A DNA stretch of 64,000 bases, taken from the NCBI RefSeq assembly GCF_037479095.1, contig NZ_JBBGZW010000001.1, forward strand, positions 1-64,000, in the 5' to 3' direction. Source of the stretch: Pantoea nemavictus. Lineage in GTDB: Bacteria > Pseudomonadota > Gammaproteobacteria > Enterobacterales > Enterobacteriaceae. The first letter of the stretch is position 1. The number at the start of each line of letters is the position of its first letter. This document shows positions 8,736-25,961 of this stretch, piece after piece. Both the position numbers and the translations under genes were made by a program. The notes under the pieces were generated by a model. It did no database searches. It saw only the letters and a program-made list of their open reading frames with translations, and had not been told where the DNA came from.

Positions 8736-8812
8736 TCGCACGTGATTAACGTCGGTCGCCTATTTTTTAATCATCGCGACCGCCAACAACAATGACCAAA
8801 AGGATTACAGCT

Positions 8813-9601
8813 ATGGGTTTTCTTTCCGGTAAGCGCATTCTGATTACTGGCGTTGCCAGTAAACTCTCAATCGCCTACGGTATTGCGCAGGCGATGCACA
8901 AACAGGGCGCAGAACTGGCTTTCACCTACCAGAACGACAAACTGAAAAGTCGTGTGGAAGAGTTTGCTAAAGATCTGGGTTCAGACATTGTTCTGCCTTG
9001 CGATGTAGCCGAAGACGAGAGCATCACTGCGCTGTTCACCGAACTGGCAAAAACCTGGCCGAAATTTGACGGTTTCGTTCACTCCATCGGTTTCGCGCCT
9101 GGCGATCAGCTGGATGGTGACTATGTGAACGCAGTGACCCGTGAAGGCTTCAAAATCGCTCACGACATCAGCGCCTACAGCTTTGTCGCGATGGCTAAAG
9201 AGTGCCGTGCGATGCTGAACCCTAACTCTGCCCTGCTGACCCTGTCCTACCTGGGTGCAGAGCGCGCGATCCCTAACTACAACGTTATGGGTCTGGCGAA
9301 AGCGTCTCTGGAAGCCAACGTTCGTTACATGGCGAACGCGATGGGTCCAGAAGGCACGCGCGTTAACGCCGTGTCGGCCGGTCCAATCCGTACCCTGGCG
9401 GCGTCAGGCATCAAAGACTTCCGTAAGATGCTGGCACACTGCGAAGCGGTTACCCCGATTCGTCGTACCGTGACCATCGAAGACGTGGGTAACTCTGCGG
9501 CCTTCCTGTGTTCTGACCTCGCGGGTGGTATCACCGGTGAAGTGGTACACGTTGATGGCGGCTTCAGCATCGCCGCGATGAACGAGCTGGAACTGAAATA
9601 A
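8813..9601 (+). CDS. fabI: FabI, enoyl-[acyl-carrier-protein] reductase (NADH)
   Basis: The protein has 262 residues. It catalyses the last reduction of each fatty-acid elongation cycle in the cytosol and is the triclosan target. It is a short-chain dehydrogenase fold with [13 protein letters not shown] at the cofactor site and the catalytic Tyr146, Tyr156 and Lys163 in place. Gly93, the classic resistance site, is unchanged in [10 protein letters not shown] chose the ATG at 8813 because it gives the family N-terminus [12 protein letters not shown] and has AGGA nine bases upstream. It is a single-gene unit with its own promoter and terminator. Confidence 0.97.
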
Positions 9602-16157: not shown

Positions 16158-18092
16158 ATGTTCCAGGATAATCCGCTGCTCGCGCAGCTTAAAGAGAAGC
16201 TTCACGCGCAGACTCCGCGCGTCGAAGGTGTTGTTAAAGGTACGGAAAAAGGCTTTGGCTTCCTTGAAGTTGATGCCCAAAAAAGCTACTTCATTCCGCC
16301 ACCGCAGATGAAGAAAGTGATGCACGGCGACCGTATTTCAGCCGTGATCCACACCGATAAAGACCGCGAGAGTGCCGAGCCGGAAACCCTGGTTGAGCCG
16401 TTCCTGACCCGCTTTGTCGGCCGCGTACAAAAGAAGGACGATCGCCTGTCGATTGTACCGGATCATCCGCTGCTTAAAGATGCGATTCAGTGTCGCGCCG
16501 ATCGTAGCGTGTCCCACGATTTCCAGAACGGCGATTGGGCGGTGGCGGAAATGCGCCGTCATCCGCTGAAGGGCGATCGCGGTTTTTATGCCGAACTGAC
16601 CGAATTCATTGTCACTGCGGACGATCACCTCGCGCCATGGTGGGTGACGCTGTCGCGTCACAACCTCGAACGTCAGGCACCCGACGTCGGTTTTGGTGAG
16701 ATGATTGATGAGAATCTGCAGCGTGAAGATCTGACTGCCCTGAACTTCGTCACCATCGACAGCGCCAGCACCCAAGATATGGATGATGCGCTGTACGTGG
16801 AAGAGACCGCCGACGGCAATCTTTCGCTGACCATCGCTATCGCCGATCCTACCGCTTACGTGCCGGAAGGCAGTGAGCTGGATAAGCTGGCGTCAAAACG
16901 CGCCTTCACCAACTATCTGCCGGGCTTCAACATTCCGATGCTGCCGCGCGAGCTTTCTGACAACGTCTGTTCACTGCGTCCGAACGAGCGTCGTCCGGCG
17001 CTGGCGTGCCGCGTAACGGTACTGAAAGATGGCAGCCTGGCTGACGATGTGCACTTCTTCGCCGCGTGGATCGAATCGAAAGCCAAACTGGTTTATGACG
17101 AGGTCTCCGATTGGCTGGAAAATAGCGGCAGCTGGCAGCCAGAGAACGAGGCGATTGCCCAGCAGATTCGCCTGCTGCATCAGGTTTGCCTGGCGCGCAG
17201 CGAGTGGCGTCAAACCCATGCGCTGGTGTTTAAAGATCGTCCGGACTACCGCTTCGTCCTGGGCGAGAAAGGCGAAGTGCTGGATATCATCTCTGAGCCA
17301 CGTCGCATCGCTAACCGCATCGTAGAAGAGTCAATGATTCTGGCTAACGTCTGTGCCGCCAACGTGCTGCAGGAGAAGCTGGGCTTCGGTATCTACAACC
17401 TGCATACCGGCTTTGATCTGGCGAATGCTGAGCAGGCCGCTGGCGTGCTGGCGGGGCACGGTATCACCGTTGATCCGCAGGCAATTACCACGCTGGAAGG
17501 CTTCCGTCAGCTGCGCCGTGAACTCGATGCGCAGCCAACGCAGTATCTTGATAGCCGCATTCGTCGCTTCCAGTCCTTTGCGGAAGTCGGCACCGAACCT
17601 GGCCCGCACTTTGGTCTCGGCCTTGACGCCTACGCGACCTGGACTTCGCCAATTCGTAAGTTTGGCGACATGATCAACCATCGTCTGCTGAAAGCGATTG
17701 TGCGCGGCGACAGCATCGCCCGTCCGCAGGATGAGCTGACGACGATCATGAGCGAACGTCGTCGTCTGAACCGTATGGCTGAACGCGATGTGGGTGATTG
17801 GCTTTACGCACGTTTCCTGTCGCCGTTTGCTGGCACCGACCGCAAATTCAGCGCCGAAGTTATCGACGTGTCGCGTGGCGGTATGCGCGTTCGTTTGCAG
17901 GAAAATGGCGCGGTTGCCTTTATCCCTGCACCATTCATCCACGCGGTGCGTGATGAACTGGTGTGCTCGCAGGAGAGCGGCACCGTGCAGATTAAAGGTG
18001 AAGTGGCTTACCGCGTTACTGACATCATTGATGTGACCATCGCCGAAGTGCGCATGGAAACACGCAGCGTGGTGGCTCGTCCCGCCGCCTGA
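16158..18092 (+). CDS. rnb: RNase II, processive 3'-5' exoribonuclease
   Basis: The protein has 644 residues, the same as E. coli. It degrades unstructured RNA from the 3' end in mRNA turnover. The order is an N-terminal cold-shock/OB domain ([18 protein letters not shown]), a second cold-shock domain, the RNB catalytic domain from about 190, and a C-terminal S1 domain (about 555-640). The four metal-binding aspartates 201, 207, 209 and 210 lie in [12 protein letters not shown], and Tyr/Phe contacts are kept in [12 protein letters not shown]. The start at 16158 matches the family N-terminus [12 protein letters not shown]. It stands alone between two terminators. Confidence 0.97.
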
Positions 18093-18276: not shown

Positions 18277-20343
18277 ATGAACAACGTCAAAACCAGATTG
18301 ATCTGGTTAGCGGTGGCGTTAATTGGCGCGGGCGCGTTTGCCATGCTGGCGCTCAGCCGCGGCGAACATGTCAACGCTGTCTGGCTGGTCATTGCCTCCG
18401 TCGCCTGCTACAGCATTGCCTACCGCTTCTACAGCCTGTTTATTTCAAAGCGCATCTTTGAACTGGACGATCGTCGACTTACGCCGGCGGAGCGCCTCAG
18501 TGACGGTCTCGATTACGTTCCCACCAATAAATGGGTGTTGTTCGGCCACCACTTTGCGGCGATTGCCGGTGCGGGGCCGCTGGTTGGGCCGATTCTCGCG
18601 GCACAAATGGGTTTTCTGCCCGGCACCATCTGGATTCTGGTGGGCGTCATGTTTGCCGGCGCGGTGCAGGACTTCCTGATTCTGTTTATCTCTACGCGTC
18701 GTGATGGACGTTCACTGGGTGAGATGGCGCGCCAGGAGCTCGGATCCTTCGCCGGTGTGGTTACCATGCTTGGCGCGTTGGGCGTGATGATCATCATCCT
18801 CTCCGCACTGGCGCTGGTGGTGGTAAAAGCGTTAGCAAACAGTCCGTGGGGCTTGTTCACTATTGCCGCCACCATTCCCATTGCGCTGTTTATGGGCGTG
18901 TATATGCGCTTCCTGCGACCGGGGAAAATTGCGGAAGTGTCGATCATTGGCTTCGTTCTAATGATGGCGGCGATCATTTACGGCGGCAACGTGGCAGCCG
19001 ACCCTTACTGGGGCCCGCTGTTTACCCTGAAAGGCACGGAGTTGACGTGGGTGCTGGTGATCTACGGTTTTATCGCCTCTTCGCTGCCGGTGTGGTTGCT
19101 GCTGGCGCCGCGCGATTATCTCTCTACCTTCCTGAAAATCGGCGTCATCATTGGTCTGGCGATTGGTATTCTGTTTGCCATGCCTGAAATGAAGATGCCC
19201 GCCGTCACCAAATTTATTGATGGCACCGGCCCGGTATTCTCCGGCGCACTGTTCCCGTTCCTGTTTATTACCATTGCCTGTGGCGCGATTTCCGGCTTCC
19301 ACGCGTTGGTCTCGAGCGGAACCACGCCGAAACTGGTGGAGCGCGAAAGTCATATTCGCTTTATCGGCTATGGCGCGATGTTGATGGAGTCGTTCGTGGC
19401 GATCATGGCGCTGATTTGCGCCTCGGTGCTCGATCCGGGCGTCTATTTTGCTATGAACTCCCCTGCCGCGCTGATTGGCACCACGGTGGAAAGCGCCTCG
19501 CAGGCGATTAACGGCTGGGGCTTTGTGGTGACGCCAGAAATGCTAAGCGGCATCGCGCGCGACGTGGGTGAAAGCACCATTCTGTCACGTGCCGGTGGCG
19601 CGCCAACCTTCGCGGTGGGCATGGCGCATATTATTACCGAAGTGTTTAACAGCCGCGCCATGATGGCGTTCTGGTATCACTTCGCCATTCTGTTTGAAGC
19701 GCTGTTTATTCTTACTGCGGTTGATGCCGGTACGCGCGCCTGCCGGTTTATGGTGCAGGATCTGGTGGGCACCGTGGTGCCGTCCATGGCCAATAACCGT
19801 TCATGGCTGGGCAACATGGCTGGCACCACTGTCGCTGTCGCTGGCTGGGGCTTCTTTGTCTATCAAGGCGTGGTCGATCCGCTCGGCGGCATTAATACGC
19901 TGTGGCCGCTGTTTGGCATCGGCAACCAGATGCTGGCGTCAATGGCGTTGATTCTCGGCACCGTGGTGCTGTTCAAGATGAAAAAGCAGCGCTACGCATG
20001 GGTAACAATTTTACCCACCGCCTGGCTGTTTATTACCTCAATGACCGCTGGCTGGCAGAAGATCTTCCATGAGAAGCCTTCGATTGGCTTCCTCGCTCAG
20101 GCCAATAAATTCCGTAAAGGCATTGATGATGGGATTGTCATTGCCCCAGCGAAAACGGTCGCTGATATGCAAACCATCGTGTTTAGCAATCAAATTAACG
20201 CGGCCCTGTGCGCCTTCTTCATGCTGGTGGCGGTCACCATGCTGGTTGCCGCCTTCTTCGTGATTCGTCGGGCACTTAACAGCGCAGTACCGACTACCCA
20301 TGAATCTGAGATCTCTCTGCGTAAAGAGGTGCGAAATGTCTGA
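18277..20343 (+). CDS. cstA: CstA/BtsT-family carbon-starvation transporter
   Basis: The protein has 688 residues with many hydrophobic segments. The CstA core carries FGHHFAAIAGAGPLVGPILAAQMG, GAVQDFLILFISTRRDG, PVWLLLAPRDYLSTFLKIG and ITIACGAISGFHALVSSGTTPK (each split by short variable runs). In E. coli CstA imports peptides or pyruvate and BtsT imports pyruvate. This protein has features of both, so CstA is my choice by family only. It has AAGGAG seven bases before the ATG. It overlaps the downstream YjiX-like gene by eight bases, the usual cstA/ybdD or btsT/yjiX pair. Confidence 0.88.
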   Translation: MNNVKTRLIWLAVALIGAGAFAMLALSRGEHVNAVWLVIASVACYSIAYRFYSLFISKRIFELDDRRLTPAERLSDGLDYVPTNKWVLFGHHFAAIAGAGPLVGPILAAQMGFLPGTIWILVGVMFAGAVQDFLILFISTRRDGRSLGEMARQELGSFAGVVTMLGALGVMIIILSALALVVVKALANSPWGLFTIAATIPIALFMGVYMRFLRPGKIAEVSIIGFVLMMAAIIYGGNVAADPYWGPLFTLKGTELTWVLVIYGFIASSLPVWLLLAPRDYLSTFLKIGVIIGLAIGILFAMPEMKMPAVTKFIDGTGPVFSGALFPFLFITIACGAISGFHALVSSGTTPKLVERESHIRFIGYGAMLMESFVAIMALICASVLDPGVYFAMNSPAALIGTTVESASQAINGWGFVVTPEMLSGIARDVGESTILSRAGGAPTFAVGMAHIITEVFNSRAMMAFWYHFAILFEALFILTAVDAGTRACRFMVQDLVGTVVPSMANNRSWLGNMAGTTVAVAGWGFFVYQGVVDPLGGINTLWPLFGIGNQMLASMALILGTVVLFKMKKQRYAWVTILPTAWLFITSMTAGWQKIFHEKPSIGFLAQANKFRKGIDDGIVIAPAKTVADMQTIVFSNQINAALCAFFMLVAVTMLVAAFFVIRRALNSAVPTTHESEISLRKEVRNV

Positions 20344-20789: not shown

Positions 20790-22775
20790 ATGACCGATGA
20801 ACAAGGGCAAACACTGTTGTACACCTTGTTTGGCACCACCAGCCCTCATTGGCGTTTAACCTCAGATAGTGATGCTTTGCATTTTGCCGAAGATGAGAAC
20901 GCGAATACCAATATGGCGGTTCCACTTACTCCCGCACAAGCCAGTTTGTTGCGTGCGATGACCGTTATAACCTCCAGTATTAACCTCACGCTGTCGCTGC
21001 ATGGCGAGCCGGTACCGATGCATTTTGTTGGCCGTAAAGTTAATCAATCCACCTGGGCTGGCACCTCGTCAGCCTGGGGCGATACCTCTGCTGTCGCGCG
21101 GGATTTGACGCTCGGTTTATCGTTCGCGGAACAGGTGGTTTCGGAAGCCAATTCCGTGATTGTGATACTCGATCAACGCGGCAATATTCAGCGATTCAAT
21201 CGTTTAAGCGAAGAGTACACCGGACTTAAAGAGCAGGAAGTGATTGGCCGTAATGTGTTTCAACTGTTTATGACCAAGCAGGAAGCGCAGGCGTCACGGC
21301 GTAACATCGCCGGTTTCTTCAGTGAAGGCAGTTCTTACGAGGTTGAGCGCTGGATTAAAACCCGTAAAGGCCAGCGACTGTTTCTGTTTCGTAATAAGTT
21401 TGTTCACAGCGGTAGCGGAAAAAATGAAATTTTCCTCATCTGTTCAGGAACGGACATCACCGAAGAGCGCCGGGCGCAGGAACGGCTGCGCGTCTTAGCC
21501 AATACCGATACGGTGACGGGGTTGCCTAACCGCAACGCTATTCATCAGCAGATTAGTCTGGCACTGGAGCTGGCAAATGGCAGTCAAACCGGTGTGGTTT
21601 ACCTCGATTTAGACAATTTTAAGAAGGTCAATGACGCGTACGGCCATATGTTCGGCGATCAGTTGCTGCAAGCAGTGTCTCTGGCGATCCTCAGCTGCCT
21701 GAGCAAAGACCAGACGCTGGCGCGCCTCGGCGGCGATGAATTTGTCGTACTGGCGGAACATACCAGCCAGGCGGCGCTGGAGGCGATGGCGTCGCGTATT
21801 CTTGAACGTCTGCGCCAGCCCTTCCGCATCGGCCTGATTGAGGTGTATAGCGGCTGCTCGATTGGTATCGCTCTGGCTCCGCTGCACGGCGAAGATCGTG
21901 AAAGCTTGATTCGCAACGCGGATACCGCGATGTACCACGCCAAGGAGAACGGTCGCGGCAAGTTCTGCGTATTCGCAAATGAGATGAACCAGCGGGTGTT
22001 TGAGTACCTTTGGCTCGACACCAATCTGCGCAAAGCGCTCGAACTCGACCATCTGGTGGTGCATTATCAGCCGAAACTGAATGCCGATGGCGAGGTGCTA
22101 AGCGCCGAAGCACTGGTGCGCTGGAATTCACCGGAGCGCGGGTTGGTGCCACCGGGCGACTTCATCTCCTATGCTGAAGAGTCTGGTTTGATTGTGCCAT
22201 TGGGTCGCTGGGTGATGCTCAATGTGCTGCAGCAGATTATTAAGTGGCGTAGCGAAGGCATCTATCTGCGTGTCGCGGTAAATGTCTCCGCTAAGCAACT
22301 GATCGACCAGAGTATTTACACTGATTTGAAACATGCGCTGACCGAAGCTGGCCTGACGGATTGCCCGATCGATATCGAATTAACGGAAAGTTGTTTGATT
22401 GAGAATGAAGCTGGCGCGCTGATGCTGATGAAGCAGTTCCAGCAACTGGGTGCGCAAATTCATCTCGATGATTTTGGTACCGGTTACTCCTCGCTTTCCC
22501 AGCTGGCGCGCATCCCTATCGATGCCATAAAACTGGACCAGAGCTTTGTGCGTAATATCAATAAGCAACCTGTCGCGCAGTCGCTGGTCCGTGCGATTGT
22601 CGCGGTTGCCAAAGCCCTTAAGCTGCAGGTGATTGCCGAGGGCATTGAAACGAAAGCCGAAGAGAAGTTTGTGATGGCCAACGGTGTCGATGGGCGTCAA
22701 GGTTATTATTATGCAAAACCAATGCCCGCAGAACAGCTCGGGCATTGGCTGGCTAAGCATCCTGCCCGCGTCTAA
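20790..22775 (+). CDS. pdeR: RpfR/PdeR (Gmr): FI-PAS-GGDEF-EAL cyclic-di-GMP enzyme and likely DSF receptor
   Basis: The protein has 661 residues, the same length as E. coli PdeR (YciR, Gmr). Residues 1-100 match the N-terminal domain that in RpfR proteins contacts RpfF. A PAS domain (about 115-235, GNIQRFNRLSEEYTGLKEQE) is where family members bind the fatty-acid signal. The GGDEF domain has an intact GGDEF at 314, and the EAL domain begins at about residue 440. The EAL side keeps its catalytic motifs ELTESCLIEN, HLDDFGTGYSSL and IAEGIET, so phosphodiesterase activity is expected. It is convergent with rpfF, stops 15 bp apart. E. coli has the regulator but no rpfF. Confidence 0.93.
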   Translation: MTDEQGQTLLYTLFGTTSPHWRLTSDSDALHFAEDENANTNMAVPLTPAQASLLRAMTVITSSINLTLSLHGEPVPMHFVGRKVNQSTWAGTSSAWGDTSAVARDLTLGLSFAEQVVSEANSVIVILDQRGNIQRFNRLSEEYTGLKEQEVIGRNVFQLFMTKQEAQASRRNIAGFFSEGSSYEVERWIKTRKGQRLFLFRNKFVHSGSGKNEIFLICSGTDITEERRAQERLRVLANTDTVTGLPNRNAIHQQISLALELANGSQTGVVYLDLDNFKKVNDAYGHMFGDQLLQAVSLAILSCLSKDQTLARLGGDEFVVLAEHTSQAALEAMASRILERLRQPFRIGLIEVYSGCSIGIALAPLHGEDRESLIRNADTAMYHAKENGRGKFCVFANEMNQRVFEYLWLDTNLRKALELDHLVVHYQPKLNADGEVLSAEALVRWNSPERGLVPPGDFISYAEESGLIVPLGRWVMLNVLQQIIKWRSEGIYLRVAVNVSAKQLIDQSIYTDLKHALTEAGLTDCPIDIELTESCLIENEAGALMLMKQFQQLGAQIHLDDFGTGYSSLSQLARIPIDAIKLDQSFVRNINKQPVAQSLVRAIVAVAKALKLQVIAEGIETKAEEKFVMANGVDGRQGYYYAKPMPAEQLGHWLAKHPARV

Positions 22776-22790
22776 CGCTGGTTTGCGAGA

Positions 22791-23657
22791 TTAGCCGGCT
22801 TTGCGCAAGGATGCGCTATGACGGTTCTGCAGTTGTACCAGACGTTCCATATAAGCAATGTCTTTCGGTTCCAGCGTGAAGGCATAATCAACCCAGTCCT
22901 CCGTGATATCCATTAACTCAGCACGTGATAACTGCAGCACGCGCTGACGCGCCTTCAGCATGGCACGCACGCCGTTGAGCTTTGGACGCAACGTATCGAT
23001 AAAGGTCCGCGTGGTGCGATAGCCATCGCCCGGTTGGAACACTTTATCGACCAGACCACGCGTTTCATACCACTCCGCGCTGTGTGACTCTCCTTCCATA
23101 ATCAGCTCTTCGGCCAGCTTCATGCCAGAGCGACGCGCCACTAATGAGTAGCCGCCCATGCCCGGGAACAGGTTAAACGCGATCTCCGGGAAACCCATGC
23201 GTGCGCTGTTCTGCGCCAGAATGAAGTGATGCGCCAGCGCCGCCTCAAAGCCACCGCCGAGCGCACTGCCCTCAATCATCGCCAGCGTTACCGCACCCGT
23301 ATCAAAACCCCGTGCTGCGGAGTGGATGCAGTCCACACAGGCGCGCGCATAGGCACGCAGCGCTTCACGGCGGTTGTTACGAATGCACTCGACAAAGAAG
23401 CGCAAATCGCCACCGGCGTTAAACATCTGCGGTACCAACGAACCCGTCACCCAGAAGTCAATCGGCAGACCGGAACGCTGGGCTGAATAGCTCAGATTCA
23501 TGATCTCCTCAATTAATTCGTGGTTGAAACTTGGTCGCGGTTGCGCACGCAGCATCATCCACATAGTACGGCGCCCCTCTTCATAGTAGGCGGCGAGCTG
23601 TGTGGTTTGTCCAACTTCGGTGAACAGTCTGCATGTCGGTTGGTTAATTACTGTCAT
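22791..23657 (-). CDS. rpfF: RpfF, DSF-family quorum-signal synthase (crotonase fold)
   Basis: The protein has 288 residues, against 289 for Xanthomonas RpfF as I recall. Crotonase-fold motifs include MFNAGGDLRFFVECIR, ALGGGFEAALAHHF and PEIAFNLFPGMGGYS. Glu138 (in GGGFEAA) and Glu158 (in GFPEIAF) are spaced like the two catalytic glutamates of RpfF (141 and 161). The C-terminal LMDITEDWVDYAF-LEPKDIAYMERLV stretch is also RpfF-like. The enzyme makes cis-2-unsaturated fatty acids (DSF or BDSF) from acyl-ACP by dehydration and thioester cleavage. Enoyl-CoA hydratase is the alternative name, but motifs and its place next to RpfR support RpfF. AGAGGA lies before the ATG. Confidence 0.88.
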   Translation of the reverse strand: MTVINQPTCRLFTEVGQTTQLAAYYEEGRRTMWMMLRAQPRPSFNHELIEEIMNLSYSAQRSGLPIDFWVTGSLVPQMFNAGGDLRFFVECIRNNRREALRAYARACVDCIHSAARGFDTGAVTLAMIEGSALGGGFEAALAHHFILAQNSARMGFPEIAFNLFPGMGGYSLVARRSGMKLAEELIMEGESHSAEWYETRGLVDKVFQPGDGYRTTRTFIDTLRPKLNGVRAMLKARQRVLQLSRAELMDITEDWVDYAFTLEPKDIAYMERLVQLQNRHSASLRKAG

Positions 23658-23802: not shown

Positions 23803-24786
23803 TTACTTGATGGCGGCACGCTGCCCTACGGCAACATGAGAACGCTTAACGCGTCGTGAATAAACAGCGGTGATGATTGGCACGATAACAGAAGTGACGA
23901 TCACCGACGTCGCGACTAAAGCCGTGGCGGCGGGTGCGACCGGTTTAAACTGGGGCAGCATCTCGGCGATTAAGACCGGAGTCGCCACAGCAGCACCGGC
24001 GGTGCTTGAGGCTGCAATGCCTGCGGTGCCATCACCGCCACCAATCAGACGGTCGGCAATAATCAGTGGAATGCCGGTGACAATGATAACGGCGACGCCC
24101 AACATGATGCCCAACAAGCCGGTCTGAGCGATGACGGTTAAATCGATGGTGTTTCCCAACGCGAAGGCAAAGAACGGAATTAAGGTGTGTACCGCTTTGC
24201 CGAAGAATTCACGCAGTTCGGGATCGAGATTGCCCAACGCAAATCCTACGATAAACGGCAGTACCGCTCCGACAAATACATGCGGTTCAAACGACGCAAT
24301 ACCCGCGGTTCCAAGAATCACCATCGTCATCAACGGCCCCGACTCCAGTGACATCAGGACAAATGCGCCGGCTTCCTCTTTCGACCCGTATTGCTGCATG
24401 ATTGAGGCGTACAAACCGCCGTTGGTCATGTCCATTGCCGCCACTAATGCCAGCGTCGAGAGCCCGGCAAACATTCCGACCTCCACACCATTCTCTGGCA
24501 TTACGCGTGAAGCGATGGCCGCAACCACCCAGGCTACAGCGATTTTAGTCAGCACCAGCGTGCCCGATTTACGCAGCACCGTGCCCGTTGCGCTGAGTTT
24601 GATGGATGCGCCCATGCAGAAGAACCATACCGCAAGAATTGGTACGGTGCCGGTCATCAAGCCATTAGTAAACGAACCGAAGTATTTGCCCGCACCAGGG
24701 GAAAAGGTATGACAGAGCGCGCCCAGAAACAGCGGGATCAGCATCATACCGCCAGGAATTTTATCGATTGCACGTTTGATATGCAT
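23803..24786 (-). CDS. kdgT: KdgT, 2-keto-3-deoxygluconate permease
   Basis: The protein has 327 residues with about ten membrane segments. It matches E. coli KdgT through most of its length, for example [40 protein letters not shown] and [20 protein letters not shown]. It is a proton symporter that brings ketodeoxygluconate, a pectin-degradation intermediate, into the cell. A near-consensus KdgR operator lies upstream at 24896-24914. It shares its direction with rpfF, but a hairpin separates them, so rpfF probably has its own promoter. Confidence 0.96.
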
Positions 24787-24895
24787 AGTTTTGTCACCTT
24801 AACTGAGCCAGAGGGAGGTGTTTTATGATTTGCCGGATGGCATGGCGAGCAAGATAACGGGCTACGGGAAGGAAAAAAGTGATCGCACATCTATT

Positions 24896-24914
24896 TATGA
24901 AACGTTGTTTTAAT
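24896..24914 (-). promoter_or_regulatory. KdgR operator upstream of kdgT
   Basis: The 19 bases here fit the KdgR consensus AATRAAAYRNYRTTTYATT at 17 positions: TATGAAACG, T, then TGTTTTAAT. It is 110 bp upstream of the kdgT start. KdgR represses pectin-catabolism genes and is released by ketodeoxygluconate, which fits the transported substrate. Confidence 0.7.
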
Positions 24915-24981
24915 TTTATTGATTGATCATTTTGCATTTATGATGCGCATCGCCATACCAGATAAAGACAAGCTAAAAGAA

Positions 24982-24999
24982 AGGCGCCCATAGGCGCCT
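24982..24999 (-). terminator. terminator after araD
   Basis: AGGCGCC and GGCGCCT form a stem with a CATA/TATG loop; on the minus strand TTCTTTT follows. Confidence 0.75.
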
Positions 25000-25016
25000 A
25001 AGTCTTTTAAATCCAA

Positions 25017-25715
25017 TCAATTTTGTCCATACCAAGCGTTCTTTCCGTGCTTACGCAGATAATGCAGGTCCAATAAGGTTTGCGAGATGGGCGGCAACTC
25101 AGTACGCAGCTGTTCCGTATGCAGCGCCATATAGGCCACCTCTTCAAGGACTACCGCGCTGTGCACCGCAGCATGTGCATCTTTACCCCAGGCAAAAGGT
25201 CCATGCGAATTCACCAGCGCGGCGGGAATGGCGGATGGCTGAATGCCGCGCTGAGCAAAGGTTTCAATAATCACCTGACCGGTATTCCACTCATACTCCT
25301 GCTCAATCTCTTCACGCTTCATCGGTCGTGTGCAGGGAATCGTGCCGTAAAAGTCGTCGGCGTGCGTGGTGCCCAAGGCGATAATTTCGCGTCCAGCCTG
25401 TGCCCATATGGTGGCATGGCGTGAATGCGTATGTACGATGCCACCAATCTCTGGCCAGGCGAGATAGAGTGCGCGATGCGTCGCGGTGTCTGATGACGGG
25501 CGCATTTTACCCTCAACCACGTTACCGCTGGCTAGTTCAACGACCACCATATCGTCGCGCTGCATCTGTTCATACTTAACACCTGACGGTTTAATTACCA
25601 GCAGGCCTTGTTCGCGATCCACAGCGCTCACATTGCCCCAGGTAAAGGTGACAAGGTTGTAACGCGGTAGATCAAGATTGGCTTCCAGTACTTGCTGCTT
25701 TAACGCTTCCAGCAT
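25017..25715 (-). CDS. araD: L-ribulose-5-phosphate 4-epimerase (AraD/UlaF/SgbE family)
   Basis: The protein has 232 residues and is a class II aldolase/epimerase fold. Zinc-site histidines lie in [18 protein letters not shown] and one near [18 protein letters not shown]; the catalytic region is [13 protein letters not shown]. It interconverts L-ribulose-5-phosphate and D-xylulose-5-phosphate. Identity to E. coli AraD is high, but UlaF and SgbE are paralogs and no araBA or ula genes are near, so the pathway it serves is uncertain. It is a single gene with its own terminator. Confidence 0.88.
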
Positions 25716-25925: not shown

Positions 25926-25961
25926 AGAGTTACCTCGGTGTTAACAATCAAGGAGAAGTTA

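Follow-up and report, generated by a model that had tools for sequence, protein, structure and literature searches.

The locus examined here raises the question of whether a gene annotated under a generic enoyl-CoA hydratase name in Pantoea nemavictus encodes RpfF, the synthase of a diffusible signal factor (DSF), and whether it forms a signalling module with the receptor gene that it faces. The gene lies within a stretch of 64,000 nucleotides (NCBI RefSeq assembly GCF_037479095.1, contig NZ_JBBGZW010000001.1, positions 1 to 64,000 of the forward strand), referred to here as the window. A first-pass annotation made from the DNA letters had proposed a convergent RpfR/RpfF pair, and both open reading frames were recovered at full length: rpfR, also known as pdeR or gmr (20790..22775, plus strand), encodes a predicted cyclic di-GMP (c-di-GMP) phosphodiesterase of 661 amino acids, and rpfF (22791..23657, minus strand) encodes a crotonase-fold protein of 288 amino acids, predicted to be a synthase for a signal of the cis-2-dodecenoic acid (BDSF) type. 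Their convergent stop codons are separated by 15 bp (22776..22790), as read from the sequence. The gene pair, its domains, its key residues and the conserved pairing were directly observed, and the probability that this intact RpfF/RpfR pair constitutes a working DSF-type signalling module is estimated at approximately 0.9. Within its genus such a module is commonplace, yet it is masked in annotation by the generic name.

Comparison of the RpfF protein with PDB entries, among which 96 distinct sequences were matched, returned the Burkholderia cenocepacia enzyme as the top two matches (6dgn, 429.8 bits; 5fus, 428 bits). The third match, at 154.6 bits, was 3m6m, deposited as 'RpfF protein' and presumably derived from Xanthomonas, and the fourth was 7zq7 (152.1 bits), which was deposited merely as a crotonase family protein; the fifth scored 56.6 bits. 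By score, therefore, the protein does not group with ordinary enoyl-CoA hydratases. Sequence alignment revealed Glu138 (codon 23244..23246, minus strand) and Glu158 (codon 23184..23186, minus strand), each aligned with a glutamate of 6dgn, as well as with 5fus and 3m6m, and spaced by 20 residues as the first-pass annotation had described; following its numbering, these are taken to be the catalytic residues of RpfF. F44 and F88 are also kept. The protein is 100% identical to the copies of Pantoea sp. SOD02, Pantoea sp. RIT-PI-b and Pantoea endophytica. The identities of 5fus and of the FI complex as containing the B. cenocepacia enzyme are given in PMC6361424.

The facing protein was matched by the PdeR/RpfR family model NF007474 (1212.5 bits, cut-off 782), and all four of the parts expected of a full-length receptor were recovered on the plus strand. 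The RpfF-interaction (FI) domain (residues 1-95; 20790..21074) matched the solved RpfR chain 6dga with 96.5 bits, and the PAS domain (residues 118-224; 21141..21461) matched 6dgg with 201.3 bits over residues 115-224. These are followed by a GGDEF domain with its motif at residue 314 (21495..21965; PF00990, 157.8 bits) and an EAL phosphodiesterase domain with its motif at residue 440 (22017..22727; PF00563, 230.6 bits), the Pfam cut-offs being passed by the GGDEF, EAL and PAS domains. The residues that contact the fatty-acid signal in the Cronobacter PAS structure, i.e. S169, N172, Y183, R187 and N202 (PMC6361424), are all present in the window protein under the same numbering. Two trees built from its GGDEF-EAL part placed this RpfR next to the RIT-PI-b copy.

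Based on published homologues, from which the chemistry, the effect on c-di-GMP and the inhibition by the FI domain are extrapolated, RpfF would draw 3-hydroxyacyl-ACP (ACP, acyl carrier protein) from fatty-acid synthesis, dehydrate it to the cis-2 form and free the acid, the product most likely being BDSF or a near relative. Binding of this acid by the RpfR PAS domain would then lead to degradation of c-di-GMP via the EAL domain, while the N-terminal FI domain would bind RpfF and hold signal synthesis down. Control of motility, biofilm or virulence by such a signal, as proposed in the first-pass annotation, would be a further possible consequence in this strain. The last of these roles, which the first-pass annotation had not named, has been published, as FI binds RpfF and inhibits it; structures of PAS with BDSF, which it binds, and of FI with RpfF have been solved, and convergent transcription of rpfF and rpfR has been described (PMC6361424). 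In Cronobacter turicensis, rpfR and rpfF mutants showed 3.9- and 3.4-fold increases in c-di-GMP, respectively, together with increased biofilm (PMC4698668), and the Burkholderia mutants S168A, N171A and R186A, which represent three of the contact positions considered here, had raised c-di-GMP (PMC6361424).

Mechanism and gene layout are thus already in print for Cronobacter and Burkholderia, and the Pantoea module adds a new host; among the literature matches listed, as judged by titles and abstract openings, none was seen to describe a Pantoea RpfF/RpfR module. The C. turicensis system (PMC4698668; PMC6361424) shares the convergent pair, the RpfR domains and identical signal-contact residues, whereas the present host is a Pantoea; the proteins were compared through the solved FI and PAS chains. 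The B. cenocepacia pair is likewise convergent, with an RpfF that is 64% identical, shares the glutamates and obtains near-equal NCBIfam scores, but its RpfR is 57% identical, carries Phe at position 183 and is separated from rpfF by a 48-bp gap. The Xanthomonas RpfF/RpfC/RpfG system contains a relative of the synthase (3m6m, 154.6 bits). Its receptor, unlike the one described here, consists of a sensor kinase and an HD-GYP regulator (PMC4698668). Escherichia coli PdeR (Gmr) shares the domains and the rnb-to-osmB neighbourhood; its receptor gene is described as lacking a synthase, with C12:0 as its regulator put forward as speculation (PMC6361424). In agreement with this, and with what the first-pass annotation had held for E. 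coli, a DNA-level search found a match in 5372 of 5426 E. coli genomes, with 80% of the pair covered in none.

The distribution of the pair was examined in two genome samples. Among 60 genomes searched as relatives (the own genome, 35 others of the genus and 24 from other families of the order), rpfF was present in the genome under study and in 34 of its 35 congeners, the exception having a 2.4-Mb genome, and in none of the 24 genomes from other families (E 1e-30). Among 392 genomes drawn evenly across the family group (thresholds of E 1e-150 for RpfR and E 1e-30 for RpfF), RpfR was found in 140 and RpfF in 99; all 99 genomes with RpfF also contain RpfR, and RpfR occurs alone in 41. The two genes were convergent in each of the 117 fetched loci holding both (80 named loci, 20 and 16 others, and B. 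cenocepacia), with an intergenic gap of -4 to 1430 bp (median 12) in the 80 named loci. These loci had been fetched for close placement of both genes; in one further genome (G307), rpfF and rpfR lie ~6 kb apart.

Work on the terminators of convergent genes already exists. The first-pass annotation had reported no terminator at the convergent end, which now appears doubtful, as a terminator-like hairpin with a T-rich tail is located on the strand of rpfF (minus) within the 3' end of rpfR (22713..22748; hairpin from 22748 down to 22719, tail 22718-22713). The stem comprises 12 positions with 11 pairs and one mismatch, is followed by TTTT and falls within the last codons of rpfR. A simple terminator scan reported none at the junction, the hairpin being found by a wider search. 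The hairpin is strong when the strand of rpfF is folded, although folding of the whole junction stretch was only modestly better than that of shuffled sequences (z -1.84, 10 of 200 as good). In the window, the rpfR side yielded no hairpin of this type.

Across loci, hairpins were counted when a stem of at least 8 positions was followed by a T-rich tail, and expectations were obtained by random synonymous recoding that preserved the proteins. By this rule, hairpins occurred in 66 of the 117 paired loci (5.8 expected) and were lacking in 51; they occurred in 27 of 36 named Pantoea loci (1.3 expected), although near-identical loci are not independent. For loci with RpfR alone, hereafter orphans, the count was 5 of 39 (2.2 expected); four of these five (L100, L136, L140 and L152) come from genera in which rpfF is present in the other members sampled. 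L149, a fifth orphan from such a genus, has no hairpin. Control counts were 3 of 117 for the sense strand of the same stretch, and 1-13 of 117 paired loci and 1-3 of 39 orphans for the antisense strand of four inner stretches. Two positions, lying ~27 and ~93 bases away from the stop codon of rpfR, accounted for nearly all hairpins. This pattern suggests that rpfF transcription ends at a putative terminator overprinted on rpfR, and one of two convergent transcripts with hardly any spacer between their genes may be terminated in this manner. For rpfR, the corresponding hairpins were rare (6 of 117 paired loci), so that rpfR RNA may run into rpfF, and the antisense interference raised by the first-pass annotation may occur in that direction.

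The paired and orphan receptors provide a natural experiment, as they differ at residues whose removal disturbs Burkholderia signalling. Orphan RpfR was retrieved from 38 of the 41 genomes with RpfR alone, three with partial matches (G087, G120 and G259) being left out, and compared with RpfR from all 98 other paired genomes (including G380), the window and the 80 named paired loci, sets that overlap. The five contact residues were intact in all 98 genomes, in the window and in all 80 named loci, and all 99 paired genomes of the 392 keep them. Of the orphans, 17 of 38 keep all five and 21 are changed, one of these at Tyr183 alone. In E. coli, Leu was found at position 187 in all six copies examined from the 5372 genomes with the gene. 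Over 39 orphans, one E. coli included, changes affected Asn172 in 11, Ser169 (to Ala) in 7, Arg187 (to Leu) in 3, Tyr183 in 2 and Asn202 in none. Every aligned row with a change was an orphan, apart from the B. cenocepacia outgroup with its Phe at 183, and the GGDEF and EAL motifs were intact in all 112 aligned rows. At least one change was seen in 11 of 17 orphan genera compared with none of 32 RpfF genera (Fisher 4e-7, a value that ignores kinship, some genera being in both sets). Judged from these residues, the ability to read DSF has probably been lost in many orphan RpfR proteins, and whether an orphan such as E. coli PdeR senses it becomes a direct binding question. As a count, the link between pocket decay and rpfF loss is strong; tested phylogenetically, it is no more than suggestive.

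Relaxation in the orphans was not uniform along the protein. Over positions that do not vary among the 178 paired loci, the mean number of changed orphans (of 39) was 6.7 for FI (14 positions), 1.8 for the linker (10), 1.65 for PAS (52), 0.35 for GGDEF (49) and 0.29 for EAL (72). These means are informative only as a contrast between domains, since picking positions by their invariance biases the other group towards change and FI is generally a rapidly evolving domain. The most changed FI positions were Ala29 (35 of 39), Ser27 (21 of 39) and Asp26 (16 of 39). They belong to a D-S-x-A-L motif (residues 26-30; 20865-20879) of which D, S and A are invariant in the aligned paired loci, whereas in orphans A is mostly changed and S and D often, and these five residues represent a candidate RpfF-binding patch. 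The five structure-chosen contacts were changed more than five random PAS invariants, a mild excess (1011 of 20000 draws as high), which is in line with the whole PAS domain relaxing in orphans and the contacts along with it. On a fixed GGDEF-EAL tree, FI evolved on orphan branches at 3.3 times the core rate, compared with 2.4 on same-clade paired branches (45 of 5000 permutations as high) and 1.3 on all paired branches. The corresponding PAS values were 1.08, 0.77 (259 of 5000) and 0.42, and EAL displayed no rate excess on orphan branches.

The history of rpfF was assessed on a tree of 112 RpfR proteins, for which named loci were thinned to three per genus and two incomplete loci (L012 and L032) were dropped. 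The presence of rpfF requires 11 changes on this tree, three of which are forced by well-supported branches, and loss is favoured over gain because the orphans fall inside the paired range and the gene arrangement is fixed. The sequence comparison suggests that relatives without rpfF are freed of the signal's constraint on FI and PAS. These data are also compatible with a wider scenario to which we assign even odds: the synthase would have been lost repeatedly across the Enterobacteriaceae and their kin while the receptor was kept. With rpfF gone, the FI surface and the DSF pocket would decay (S169A, N172Y, R187L and others), with the c-di-GMP enzyme intact and the synonymous antisense-terminator codons at the end of rpfR released. 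On this view, E. coli PdeR would be a former DSF receptor, since reassigned to a different input. No work on the decay of orphan RpfR was recognised among the literature matches listed, again by titles and abstract openings, and this proposed decay and the putative terminator within rpfR codons are the two additions made here to the known module.

The contact-residue changes in lineages with RpfR alone might instead represent lineage drift unrelated to the loss of rpfF, an explanation that is considered doubtful but deserves weight. A kinship control based on independent pairs yielded three usable pairs on well-supported branches and has no power for significance, although pocket change never ran in the opposite direction; the PAS rate excess is marginal, other PAS positions relax too, with the contacts mildly above random invariants, and almost half of the orphans keep all five contacts. 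Drift would nevertheless have to account for the lack of any change among 178 paired loci when 21 of 38 orphans are changed, for the spread of changes over 11 of 17 orphan genera, for the confinement of changed rows to orphans apart from the outgroup, and for the concentration of change in FI and PAS relative to EAL and GGDEF.

As regards the module itself, it is highly improbable that the crotonase is an ordinary enoyl-CoA hydratase of fatty-acid or aromatic degradation that lies beside pdeR by chance. Its NCBIfam name is indeed the generic 'crotonase/enoyl-CoA hydratase family protein' (NF006452, 412.7 bits, cut-off 177) and the fold is shared, but it scores 430 bits against the BDSF synthase, with no crotonase above 57 past the first four PDB matches. 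Moreover, it is convergent with RpfR in 117 of 117 loci, no RpfF genome among the 392 lacks RpfR, and the two other ECH_1 matches of the genome are longer open frames elsewhere. Another explanation, unlikely though worth retaining, is that RpfR of an intact pair responds chiefly to ordinary C12:0 or some other fatty acid while RpfF makes a different cis-2 acid, the system being a fatty-acid gauge and not a population signal. This would fit the co-purification of the Cronobacter PAS domain with C12:0 (PMC6361424) and the undetectable bioassay signal of wild-type Cronobacter (PMC4698668). However, C12:0 is described as an inactive isomer, B. cenocepacia contact-residue mutants raise c-di-GMP (PMC6361424), and within this sample retention of RpfF always goes with retention of the contact residues. 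Some observations weigh against a working DSF module. The model NF053515, 'diffusible signal factor synthase RpfF', gave 180.8 bits against a cut-off of 550 and was not passed; as the control RpfF of B. cenocepacia (locus L094) fails likewise (188.2 bits, with 412.1 for NF006452), this cut-off does not cover the present RpfF branch. Wild-type C. turicensis elicited no biosensor response, which was obtained only with the strain carrying plasmid-borne rpfF (PMC4698668), so that natural signal levels may be low. Finally, in zebrafish the C. turicensis rpfR mutant matched the virulence of the wild type, which the rpfF mutant did not (PMC4698668), and RpfR may consequently not be the sole receptor. 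The DSF-type RpfF/RpfR module remains well supported by homology, the glutamates, the ligand-contact residues, conserved pairing and the published function of homologues.

Several further rpfF loci were observed. In G380 (L167), where the neighbouring receptor gene is intact, rpfF is spread over two overlapping frames and seems to be in the process of being lost, and in G443 (L166), it aligns along its length at 68%, with a diverging last fifth. A second rpfF copy (L169; G321 contig 7, 1003800-1008800), 73-74% identical, lies ~280 kb from the paired copy, and no long RpfR match was present within the 5 kb fetched. In E. coli, the ymiD frame occupies the place of rpfF; YmiD (42 residues, L130:5239-5367, minus strand, overlapping the pdeR end) was considered as an rpfF remnant and set aside, as three reverse frames showed no likeness by eye, no profile search having been made. 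The RpfF proteins of Enterobacter ludwigii EnVs2, Enterobacter cancerogenus M004 and Erwinia sp. S63 (L007, L008 and L010) are 99% identical to that of the window and their RpfR proteins fall near or among Pantoea copies; the genus in these record titles may be wrong.

Regarding the neighbourhood, rnb (16158-18092) and fabI (8792-9601) lie within the window, as the first-pass annotation had indicated, and a promoter scan returned 0 sites. A CstA-like transporter gene (18277-20343; 1005 bits, under its cut-off of 1188) separates rnb from rpfR and has no counterpart there in the E. coli record inspected. On its other side, rpfF is flanked by kdgT (23803-24786), followed by an araD-like 4-epimerase gene (25017-25715); both (23803-25715) are absent at this place in the same E. 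coli record, and on their far side from rpfF, at 25938, lies a small lipoprotein frame that resembles OsmB.

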